Positions 23,007 through 24,045 of a stretch of DNA of 64,000 bases are shown in pieces (the stretch's first letter is position 1; every line of letters starts with the position of its first letter). The DNA lies in the NCBI RefSeq assembly GCF_013391105.1, contig NZ_CP058335.1, positions 620,001 to 684,000 of the forward strand. Reading direction: 5' to 3'. This stretch comes from Natronomonas salina (GTDB lineage Archaea; Halobacteriota; Halobacteria; Halobacteriales; Haloarculaceae). A program made the position numbers and the translations under genes. A model generated the notes under the pieces. It did not search any database. It was not told the DNA's origin and was given only the letters and a program-made list of their open reading frames with translations.

Positions 23007-23114
23007 GCTTTGCACCCCTGGCTTCTTGCCCCATCTTTTCCGGTAAAAGCAACTTCTTCCGGACCCGTCTAATCAAAAACTGGCCGTTCGGGGCCGTCCA
23101 GCCGAGGGATTCGG

Positions 23115-23303
23115 TCACCGGAGCGCTCGCGCGGCGACGACGCAGACGCCGGCCGTGAACAGGCCAGAGACGACCAACATCGGCGAAGTCGCCAGGAGGA
23201 CGAGCGTCGCGAAGGCGACGCAACTGCCGACGGTGGCGGCGCCGGGCGGCGAGCGTTCGTCCGGGCGATACCGGTCGGAGGGTCGAAGGTCAGGGGGTCG
23301 CAT
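23115..23303 (-). CDS. Small membrane protein
   Basis: 62 aa, MRPPDLRPSDRYRPDERSPP followed by a hydrophobic stretch (VGSCVAFATLVLLATSPML then VSGLFTAGVCVVAARAL) that forms two short membrane segments. No family recognised. It is the last gene of the minus-strand unit that begins near 24010, 22 nt after tRNA-like element A. High GC3 and a positive N-terminus before a membrane helix support coding. Confidence 0.5.
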   Translation of the reverse strand: MRPPDLRPSDRYRPDERSPPGAATVGSCVAFATLVLLATSPMLVVSGLFTAGVCVVAARALR

Positions 23304-23311
23304 GGAATCAC

Positions 23312-23324
23312 GGGGCAGAGCCCC
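23312..23324 (-). terminator. Small GC hairpin after tRNA-like element A
   Basis: GGGGCTCTGCCCC on the minus strand forms a perfect 5-bp stem with a 3-nt loop, directly 3' of the tRNA-like element and 8 nt before the ATG at 23303. No T tract follows, so it may be an RNA stability or processing element instead of a terminator. Confidence 0.35.
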
Positions 23325-23325
23325 A

Positions 23326-23373
23326 GGGTCCCGTCAGGGGTCGAACCCGAACTGCCCCGGCTGGCACGGGACC
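23326..23373 (-). ncRNA. tRNA-like element A (acceptor stem, hairpin, T arm; no anticodon)
   Basis: Read on the minus strand. 5' GGTCCCG (23373-23367) pairs with CGGGACC (23333-23327) as a 7-bp acceptor-like stem. Next comes a 4-bp hairpin, TGCC/GGCA with a 6-nt loop (23366-23353). Then a T arm: stem TCGGG/CCTGA (one G-U) and the 7-nt loop TTCGACC, matching the tRNA T-loop consensus TTCRANN. A discriminator-like C follows; CCA is not encoded. At 48 nt it lacks D and anticodon arms. It begins 6 nt after the stop of the 87-aa gene. Pairing is directly visible; RNA function is inferred. Confidence 0.55.
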
Positions 23374-23379
23374 GGTCGA

Positions 23380-23643
23380 TCACTCGACGTCGACCTGGAG
23401 GACGCCGAATCCGTCGCCCAGGCGGACGGCGGGGTCGGTCACCGCCTCGTCGAAGGCGACGGTGGCGCGGGCTTCGACGTAGAGGTCCAGCGCGTCGGGC
23501 CGGACGCCTTCCAGATCGTGGACGTCGACGCGCGCGACGCCGTCGACGCTCGAGACGACGTCGCGGACGCCGCCCTCGACGTCGCCGGCCGCGCCGCGCG
23601 GGACGCGGACTGACAGCTTCGCTCGACAGGTCTCCGCGAGCAT
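23380..23643 (-). CDS. 87-aa conserved-looking protein between two tRNA-like elements
   Basis: MLAETCRAKLSVRVPRGAAG, then a predicted alternation of strands and helix (VRDVVSSVDGVARVDVHDL, LYVEARATVAF) and an acidic end GFGVLQVDVE. It suggests a small alpha/beta fold but I recognise no family. The ATG at 23643 is 1 nt after the discriminator-like base of element B and there is no Shine-Dalgarno sequence, so this would be a leaderless message if the RNA is cut at that point. The frame has haloarchaeal codon use. Confidence 0.6.
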   Translation of the reverse strand: MLAETCRAKLSVRVPRGAAGDVEGGVRDVVSSVDGVARVDVHDLEGVRPDALDLYVEARATVAFDEAVTDPAVRLGDGFGVLQVDVE

Positions 23644-23644
23644 A

Positions 23645-23704
23645 CGCCCCCGGCGGGAGTCGAACCCGCCTCGCGCGACCGCGAGACCGGCGGCTATCGG
23701 GGGT
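23645..23704 (-). ncRNA. tRNA-like element B (acceptor stem, hairpin, T arm) abutting an ATG
   Basis: Read on the minus strand. 5' ACCCCCG (23704-23698) pairs with CGGGGGC (23652-23646): six pairs plus an outer A-C mismatch. A 12-nt single-stranded link follows, then a perfect 6-bp hairpin CTCGCG/CGCGAG with loop GTCG (23685-23670), then a T arm with stem GCGGG/CCCGC and loop TTCGACT, and a discriminator-like G at 23645. The arrangement resembles the variable arm, T arm and acceptor of a class II tRNA without D and anticodon arms. The ATG of the 87-aa gene begins one base later. A decayed tRNA is an alternative reading. Confidence 0.55.
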
Positions 23705-23712
23705 CAGACGTC

Positions 23713-23885
23713 ACTGGTCGGCGGTTCGCGCCGCGCGGCGCCCGGCCGGGGACGGCGACGGCCGGACGTGGGACTCGCTACCTGGCTGGTCGGCGACGTA
23801 GAAGGCGGGTCGCACCCGCGGAGCCGACGTTCTCAGTGGTCGGGGTCGGGAGAACGTCGTCGCGCCGCCGAACCGGGTCAGCTCG
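23713..23885 (-). other. Hairpin-rich leader or structured RNA region
   Basis: Lies between the 36-aa ORF and tRNA-like element B. Two perfect inverted repeats stand out: GACGTTCTC/GAGAACGTC (23826-23834 with 23850-23858; 9 bp, 15-nt loop) and GCGGGT/ACCCGC (23805-23810 with 23814-23819; 6 bp, 3-nt loop). The in-frame continuation past the ORF stop stays open for about 35 codons but is Arg-rich. I recognise no SRP, RNase P or box C/D-type RNA here. Strand is assigned from the promoter upstream. Confidence 0.4.
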
Positions 23886-23996
23886 TCACGCGGCGCGGAT
23901 TGCGGATGCGAGCGGAGCGTAGGCCACCCCGTTCGCCCCCGCCACGTGCCACTGAACGCCGGCGGCGTACGTCGGGGAGCGAATGGTGGTGGTCAT
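23886..23996 (-). CDS. 36-aa ORF with strong Shine-Dalgarno (leader peptide or small protein)
   Basis: Encodes MTTTIRSPTYAAGVQWHVAG and 16 more residues ending SAIRAA. GGAGG lies 5 nt before the ATG, unusual in a window where many starts look leaderless, and a TATA-like AATAATTAATA lies about 40 nt upstream. Codons are mostly G/C at the third position. It opens the unit with the structured RNA stretch, tRNA-like elements and two small genes. It could be a leader peptide controlling downstream RNA folding or a free-standing small protein; no family is recognised. Confidence 0.5.
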   Translation of the reverse strand: MTTTIRSPTYAAGVQWHVAGANGVAYAPLASAIRAA

Positions 23997-24001
23997 GGTG
24001 T

Positions 24002-24045
24002 CCTCCGCGTCATTCTTTCGTGCAGTCGGGAGGGTATTAATTATT
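24002..24045 (-). promoter_or_regulatory. TATA box and Shine-Dalgarno of the 36-aa ORF
   Basis: AATAATTAATA at 24045-24035 on the minus strand is the most AT-rich stretch near here and has TATA-box character. A start site about 25 nt downstream would leave a short 5' leader containing GGAGG (24006-24002). Confidence 0.55.

Follow-up and report, generated by a model that had tools for sequence, protein, structure and literature searches.

A tRNA-like element one nucleotide before the start codon of a small haloarchaeal gene, a probable tRNase Z signal within an mRNA

An 87-aa gene on the minus strand of the window, the 64-kb stretch of DNA analysed here (bases 620001–684000 of a 3.75-Mb haloarchaeal genome that has Natronomonas among its genus-mates), is preceded by a tRNA-like element, t1, and comparison of homologous loci makes it probable (we would put it at about 75%) that this element is a t-element built into the mRNA, i.e., a tRNA-like signal that tRNase Z would cut. 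In the course of events that we infer, transcription would start at a promoter some 400 nt before the gene and continue across a short upstream ORF and a structured leader; the folded acceptor and T arm would mimic in vivo the upper half of a tRNA, and tRNase Z would cut 3′ of the discriminator base at 23645, RNase P possibly cutting as well on the 5′ side of t1. Such a cut would free a near-leaderless mRNA beginning U-AUG, which haloarchaeal ribosomes would translate without a Shine-Dalgarno (SD) sequence. A second element, t2, past the stop codon would separate the next small cistron likewise, and the operon would then be punctuated after the manner of an animal mitochondrial transcript.

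The element before the start codon

Element t1 (23645–23704, minus strand) was identified by reading of the sequence, by its predicted fold, by a scan for T arms and by covariation in homologues, and we regard the tRNA-like anatomy of such elements as virtually certain. On the minus strand it reads ACCCCCG-AUAGCCGCCGGU-CUCGCGGUCGCGCGAG-GCGGG-UUCGACU-CCCGC-CGGGGGC-G-U-AUG, that is, an acceptor strand, a reduced D-like arm, a hairpin, a T arm, the other acceptor strand, a discriminator, one U and the start codon. The acceptor strands are ACCCCCG (23704–23698) and CGGGGGC (23652–23646), the T stem is GCGGG (23669–23665) with CCCGC (23657–23653), and the T loop is TTCGACT (23664–23658); the discriminator G 23645 is followed by U 23644 and the AUG (23643–23641), which places the predicted tRNase Z cut between 23645 and 23644. 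The first-pass annotation had described a minus-strand acceptor, hairpin and T arm with loop TTCGACT, and its coordinates proved exact to the base, as did its placing of a discriminator-like base one nucleotide before the ATG at 23643. Six acceptor pairs are certain, since A23704 and C23646, at the outer end of the stem, do not match. The structure is present in the minimum free energy fold, with a folding energy of the usual order for GC-rich DNA (z −0.33 and −0.93) and is by itself uninformative because the DNA is 74% GC. Neither ARAGORN nor Rfam called t1 when the window was scanned, and the D arm and the anticodon arm with a 7-nt loop that would accompany such calls in a functional tRNA gene were likewise not found there.

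Directly before the start codon of orthologues, an element of this type occurs in 109 distinct sequences drawn from 45 genera and 9 families (genus and family totals counted from tables of locus labels), all picked by their T loop and distance to the ATG only, without use of pairing. The ATG follows T54 at 21 nt in 64 of them, 22 nt in 26, 23 nt in 10 and 24 nt in 9, and, since a 7-nt acceptor strand and a discriminator follow the T arm, the predicted cut would leave leaders of 1, 2, 3 and 4 nt, respectively. All 109 predicted leaders fall within the definition of leaderless as a leader of ≤5 nt (PMC7531240). The T54–ATG spacing is thus held at 21–24 nt, and lengths 5′ of the T arm vary throughout; a held spacing is what coupling of a cut site to the start codon would require.

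The G53–C61 pair is present in 109 of 109 elements; with a single exception the loop reads TTCGANY; the T stem has five pairs in 88 and four in 21. As in t-elements, the acceptor is stacked on a T arm with a tRNA T loop, and the discriminator is unpaired without an encoded CCA, which occurs at bases 74–76 in none of the 109. Base 74 is T in 100 elements, C in 3, G in 6 and never A, and in 30 real tRNAs from the window genome it is always T or C. This similar bias would fit a shared 3′-processing constraint, and such a constraint would account for the gap that always separates the AUG from the discriminator; alternatively, T may be preferred at −1 of leaderless genes.

Covariation in homologues had been named as a check on the structure in the first-pass annotation, and it was found. 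In an alignment of 66 rows, comprising most of the distinct cores among the 109, T-stem cells were paired in 96.1% of cases versus 72.1 ± 1.7 when shuffled and 62.4 at the best slide, and T-stem covariation was 0.540 versus 0.114; this measure is unbiased and non-circular, since the 109 sequences were chosen without reference to pairing. The acceptor and T stem together scored 0.603 versus 0.155 in shuffles of the same 66 rows, a value whose acceptor share leans upward because the alignment left out about 20 of 89 cores, mostly ones with a poorly paired acceptor. The fair test of the acceptor is therefore a swap test on all 109 elements, and acceptor evidence has to rest on such controls in any case, since the 5′ strand was selected by best pairing in a GC-rich background. 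In its final form, with tight gap limits, this test gave a mean of 6.04 Watson-Crick pairs of 7 for each element's own strands versus 5.15 ± 0.07 for swapped strands; the highest of 2000 permutations was 5.38, so the mean of the true pairs was never reached, and 33% of own pairs were fully Watson-Crick (7/7) versus 1.4% of swapped ones. The outer acceptor pair is open in 27 of the 66 rows, as it is in the window. Base-pair counts with controls were used in place of a covariance model because the variable middle of the elements defeats a contiguous model.

A scan of both strands of the 64-kb window for T arms (a GTTCGANYC-type loop with a 5-bp stem) found exactly two, both on the minus strand and one on each side of the 87-aa ORF. 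The pattern GTTCGANYCN{11,16}ATG occurs at 33 sites in the whole 3.75-Mb genome, and a 5-bp T stem is present at 2 of the 30 with readable flanks, namely t1 and one genuine tRNA gene. T arms at gene borders are common remnants of att sites, and a few copies of the element look like recent tRNAs; both facts speak for t1 being a tRNA remnant, an integration (att) scar or a set of chance GC-rich hairpins. Compensatory changes and invariant spacing across 45 genera, together with the flanking position of the only two T arms in 64 kb, argue the other way, and we consider such an origin very improbable. The att-site remnant in particular was rejected because of the covariation.

The gene, its leader and the second element

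The 87-aa gene (23380–23643, minus strand) was characterized by profile search and Foldseek as a member of a haloarchaea-specific family with a ferredoxin-like fold. With a protein profile the family is found in 235 of 391 sampled haloarchaeal genomes and 64 of 86 genera, and among 247 genomes drawn from the phylum it is confined to haloarchaea; with a narrower protein alignment, the scan of named genomes yielded 11 loci. Searches of Pfam and NCBIfam with the protein gave no family match and a plasmid search gave no match. The Foldseek matches are weak and ferredoxin-like only (best E 0.008), and include DUF211-type archaeal proteins, NikR and EF-1 beta.

The 60 nt before the ATG average 74% GC in 122 loci, and none of these loci has an A/T run of ≥6 at −45 to −16 of the ATG, nor an SD match of more than 4 nt before it. 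The gene is thus without a leaderless promoter, which would lie about 26 nt upstream of the start codon, and without a normal ribosome site, and a leaderless end would have to arise by processing. Natronomonas-genus loci have a conserved TATA-like box some 400 nt before the gene, and a short ORF with an SD comes after the box. In the window this box, the putative operon promoter, is ATTAATAC (24034–24041, minus strand; conserved and aligned in 8 Natronomonas-genus loci), and the ORF, read from the sequence and the alignment of the same genus, encodes 36 aa, MTTTIRSPTYAAGVQWHVAGANGVAYAPLASAIRAA, with GGAGG ahead of it (23886–23996, minus strand); from its end a structured GC-rich leader, delimited by sequence and alignment, extends to t1 (23705–23885, minus strand). 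The 36-aa ORF ends in AA-stop in a CGCCGCGT context, and among 84 representative loci 48 have an upstream ORF that closes with AA-stop in a (T)CGCCGCGT(AA/GA/AG) context, although the peptides diverge elsewhere.

Many genera conserve the leader together with the upstream ORF and its AA-stop motif, as they might if t1 were the 3′-end processing signal of a functional leader RNA (the upstream ORF plus hairpins) with the 87-aa ORF merely next to it; tRNase Z would make that 3′ end too. However, the leader varies far more than either the element or the ORF, the element keeps to a distance of 1–4 nt from the AUG, and a further element lies behind the ORF, so that we think this reading quite unlikely; it is compatible with processing of the mRNA, and the two are not mutually exclusive.

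An upstream ORF ending in AA-stop together with a tRNA-like domain also recalls a tmRNA. That candidate was rejected because the order of parts does not fit, both acceptor strands lying after the upstream ORF, and ARAGORN called no tmRNA in the window. Candidate roles for the AA-stop motif are a leader peptide, a C-degron or an RNA motif. A motif near GAGAGGCATCRCTG recurs in the leader about 60–160 nt upstream of the ATG in loci L014, L085, L070, L016, L064 and L061.

The second element, t2 (23326–23373, minus strand), was identified by the T-arm scan and by pairing in homologues, and begins 6 nt past the stop codon of the 87-aa gene. It reads GGTCCCG-TGCCAGCCGGGGCAGT-TCGGG-TTCGACC-CCTGA-CGGGACC-C (23373–23326), with acceptor strands GGTCCCG at 23367–23373 and CGGGACC at 23327–23333, a T stem at 23346–23350/23334–23338 and the loop TTCGACC at 23339–23345. 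Among T arms in 115 loci (259 kb), 88 are just before the ATG of the gene and 23 are within 150 nt after its stop codon, the remainder being 12 elsewhere on the sense strand and 2 antisense. Elements of the t2 type recur in about 10 genera; their acceptors pair specifically (6.14 versus 5.12 ± 0.14) and covary (0.580 versus 0.216), and in many loci another short ORF begins a few nt past the element (in L014 likewise with 1-nt spacing). The side that tRNase Z would cut is the conserved one in t2-type elements. In two Natronomonas relatives (L005 and L006) the 5′ acceptor strand of t2 and the stop codon overlap; RNase P would harm the message by cutting there, which argues against 5′ RNase P cleavage at these two loci.

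A hairpin, GGGGC-tct-GCCCC (23312–23324, minus strand), read from the sequence and the same in Natronomonas-genus homologues, separates t2 from the second small gene of the presumed operon. This gene (23115–23303, minus strand) encodes 62 aa with a hydrophobic C-terminal half, by inspection a membrane protein, and has no Pfam match; in other genera similar small hydrophobic ORFs occupy the same place after the 87-aa-type gene. A terminator-like GGCC stem followed by TTTTT (23075–23100, minus strand) was recognized by inspection. The first-pass annotation included neither t2 nor the long leader with its promoter and upstream ORF. The overlap of t2 with the stop codon in L005 and L006 recalls the incomplete stop codons that border mitochondrial tRNAs.

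Known parallels

According to PMC3296008 and PMC4326828, and to Holzle et al. 2008 and 2012 as cited there, Haloferax tRNase Z forms the 5′ end of 5S rRNA at a natural t-element, and Haloferax RNase P and tRNase Z together excise RNAs flanked by two t-elements from engineered transcripts in vivo (PMC4326828, PMC4946936); the processing by these enzymes that the first-pass annotation had named for the element before 5S rRNA agrees with all three papers. Like t1, the Haloferax volcanii 5S element is a tRNA-like structure within a haloarchaeal transcript, and the RNA that follows has its 5′ end at the 3′ side of the structure. The tRNase Z cut is established there and predicted at the 87-aa gene, and that natural case is an rRNA, whereas here the downstream RNA is a protein-coding mRNA with a predicted cut 1–4 nt before the AUG. 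The Haloferax t-element/crRNA/t-element constructs are artificial (PMC4326828, PMC4946936), and the natural operon shares their layout, with an ORF in the middle.

In animal mitochondria tRNAs flank ORFs, and RNase P and RNase Z release mRNAs that end near start and stop codons (PMC4493943). The layout here is alike, an ORF flanked by tRNA structures with minimal spacers, t1 ending 1 nt before the AUG and t2 beginning 6 nt after the stop; the punctuating units of mitochondria are real tRNAs, whereas those of this one small archaeal operon are mostly anticodon-less tRNA-like elements. In plant mitochondria t-elements are tRNA-like structures that set mRNA ends; they are organellar and lineage-specific and, unlike the haloarchaeal element, are not known to be tied to a start codon. 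We found no report of a t-element fused to the start of an mRNA in the open literature; the list in the Haloferax t-element survey of Holzle et al. 2012, considered here through its citation, may overlap with the present case.

Graded copies, variants and loss

Copies of the upstream element grade from a near-complete tRNA to the form seen in the window, an acceptor with one hairpin and a T arm. The copy in L085 is a near-complete tRNA with anticodon TTC (59.4 bits with the Rfam tRNA model) and is the only upstream element among those of 39 loci scanned to reach the Rfam tRNA cut-off; that in L203 is called by ARAGORN as tRNA-Glu, also with anticodon TTC. Three others (L084, L093 and L101) lack an anticodon and have a D arm, GGACCCG-TA-GCTC-AAGCGGCA-GAGC...CGGGTCC-G-T-ATG. 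The middle part, including the D and anticodon arms, is not conserved among the elements. An acceptor and a T arm are what tRNase Z needs, and these are retained where the decoding parts are not.

The same copies bear on whether t1 might act uncut, as a translational control element at which a tRNA-binding protein (a synthetase, a modification enzyme or the protein encoded by the gene) blocks the neighbouring AUG or makes it accessible. The t1 structure does abut the AUG, some copies resemble tRNA-Glu with anticodon TTC (L085 and L203), and in one genus (L055) a gene for Pus10, an enzyme that modifies the T loop, is found downstream, although this last may be coincidence because neighbours differ between genera. 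General recognition by synthetases is made unlikely by the lack of conservation of the D and anticodon arms, a strong uncut stem would stay 1–4 nt before an AUG without an SD, and the fixed distance to the AUG would be left unexplained; on balance we consider control without cleavage unlikely.

Loss of the element bears on the tRNase Z reading itself. In one genus (g33; L189, L191, L106, L073, L023 and L190) the T loop is either degenerate (e.g., TTCGTCG) or missing, and in the three clearest cases (L189, L191 and L106) the ATG lies about 9–18 nt beyond the acceptor remnant. A GGAGG is present in L106, no SD was seen in L190 or L023, and a paralogue without the element, L022, has GAGGTGA. In this small sample, loss of the element appears to accompany a longer leader, as the cleavage model predicts.

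The window genome encodes an RNase Z (341 bits). For the wider proposition we see about even odds: that this is a tRNA-punctuated mRNA operon in free-living cells, in which the tRNase Z cut of a tRNA mimic turns an untranslatable leadered transcript leaderless and so licenses translation, that expression could report on tRNA-processing capacity, and that the arrangement is old in haloarchaea, at least one genus having since given it up and gone over to leadered initiation. In haloarchaea most mRNAs are leaderless since their transcription begins at the AUG itself. If the tRNase Z reading is right, the elements would represent a conserved second route to leaderless mRNA, with an end made by a tRNA-maturation enzyme; tRNA punctuation would extend from mitochondria to an archaeal operon, and expression of the 87-aa gene would be coupled to tRNA processing, the element perhaps having a regulatory use. 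The reading predicts exactly a tRNase Z-dependent RNA end at 23644–23645, and such elements may give a reusable means of making defined mRNA 5′ ends in haloarchaea.

Some further features of individual loci were observed. A variant with a canonical D arm, an altered T loop (ATCGACT) and A-C at 53:61 sits before the 87-aa-type gene or its second copy in L084, L093, L101, L204–L207 and L223. The Pus10 gene, whose product modifies the tRNA T loop, is downstream of the small gene in L055 and, by reading, probably in L102 too. A third tRNA-like element or tRNA lies about 240–340 nt upstream of the ATG in L203, L064, L066, L070, L071 and L085, and is tRNA-Gln-like in L203 and L064.
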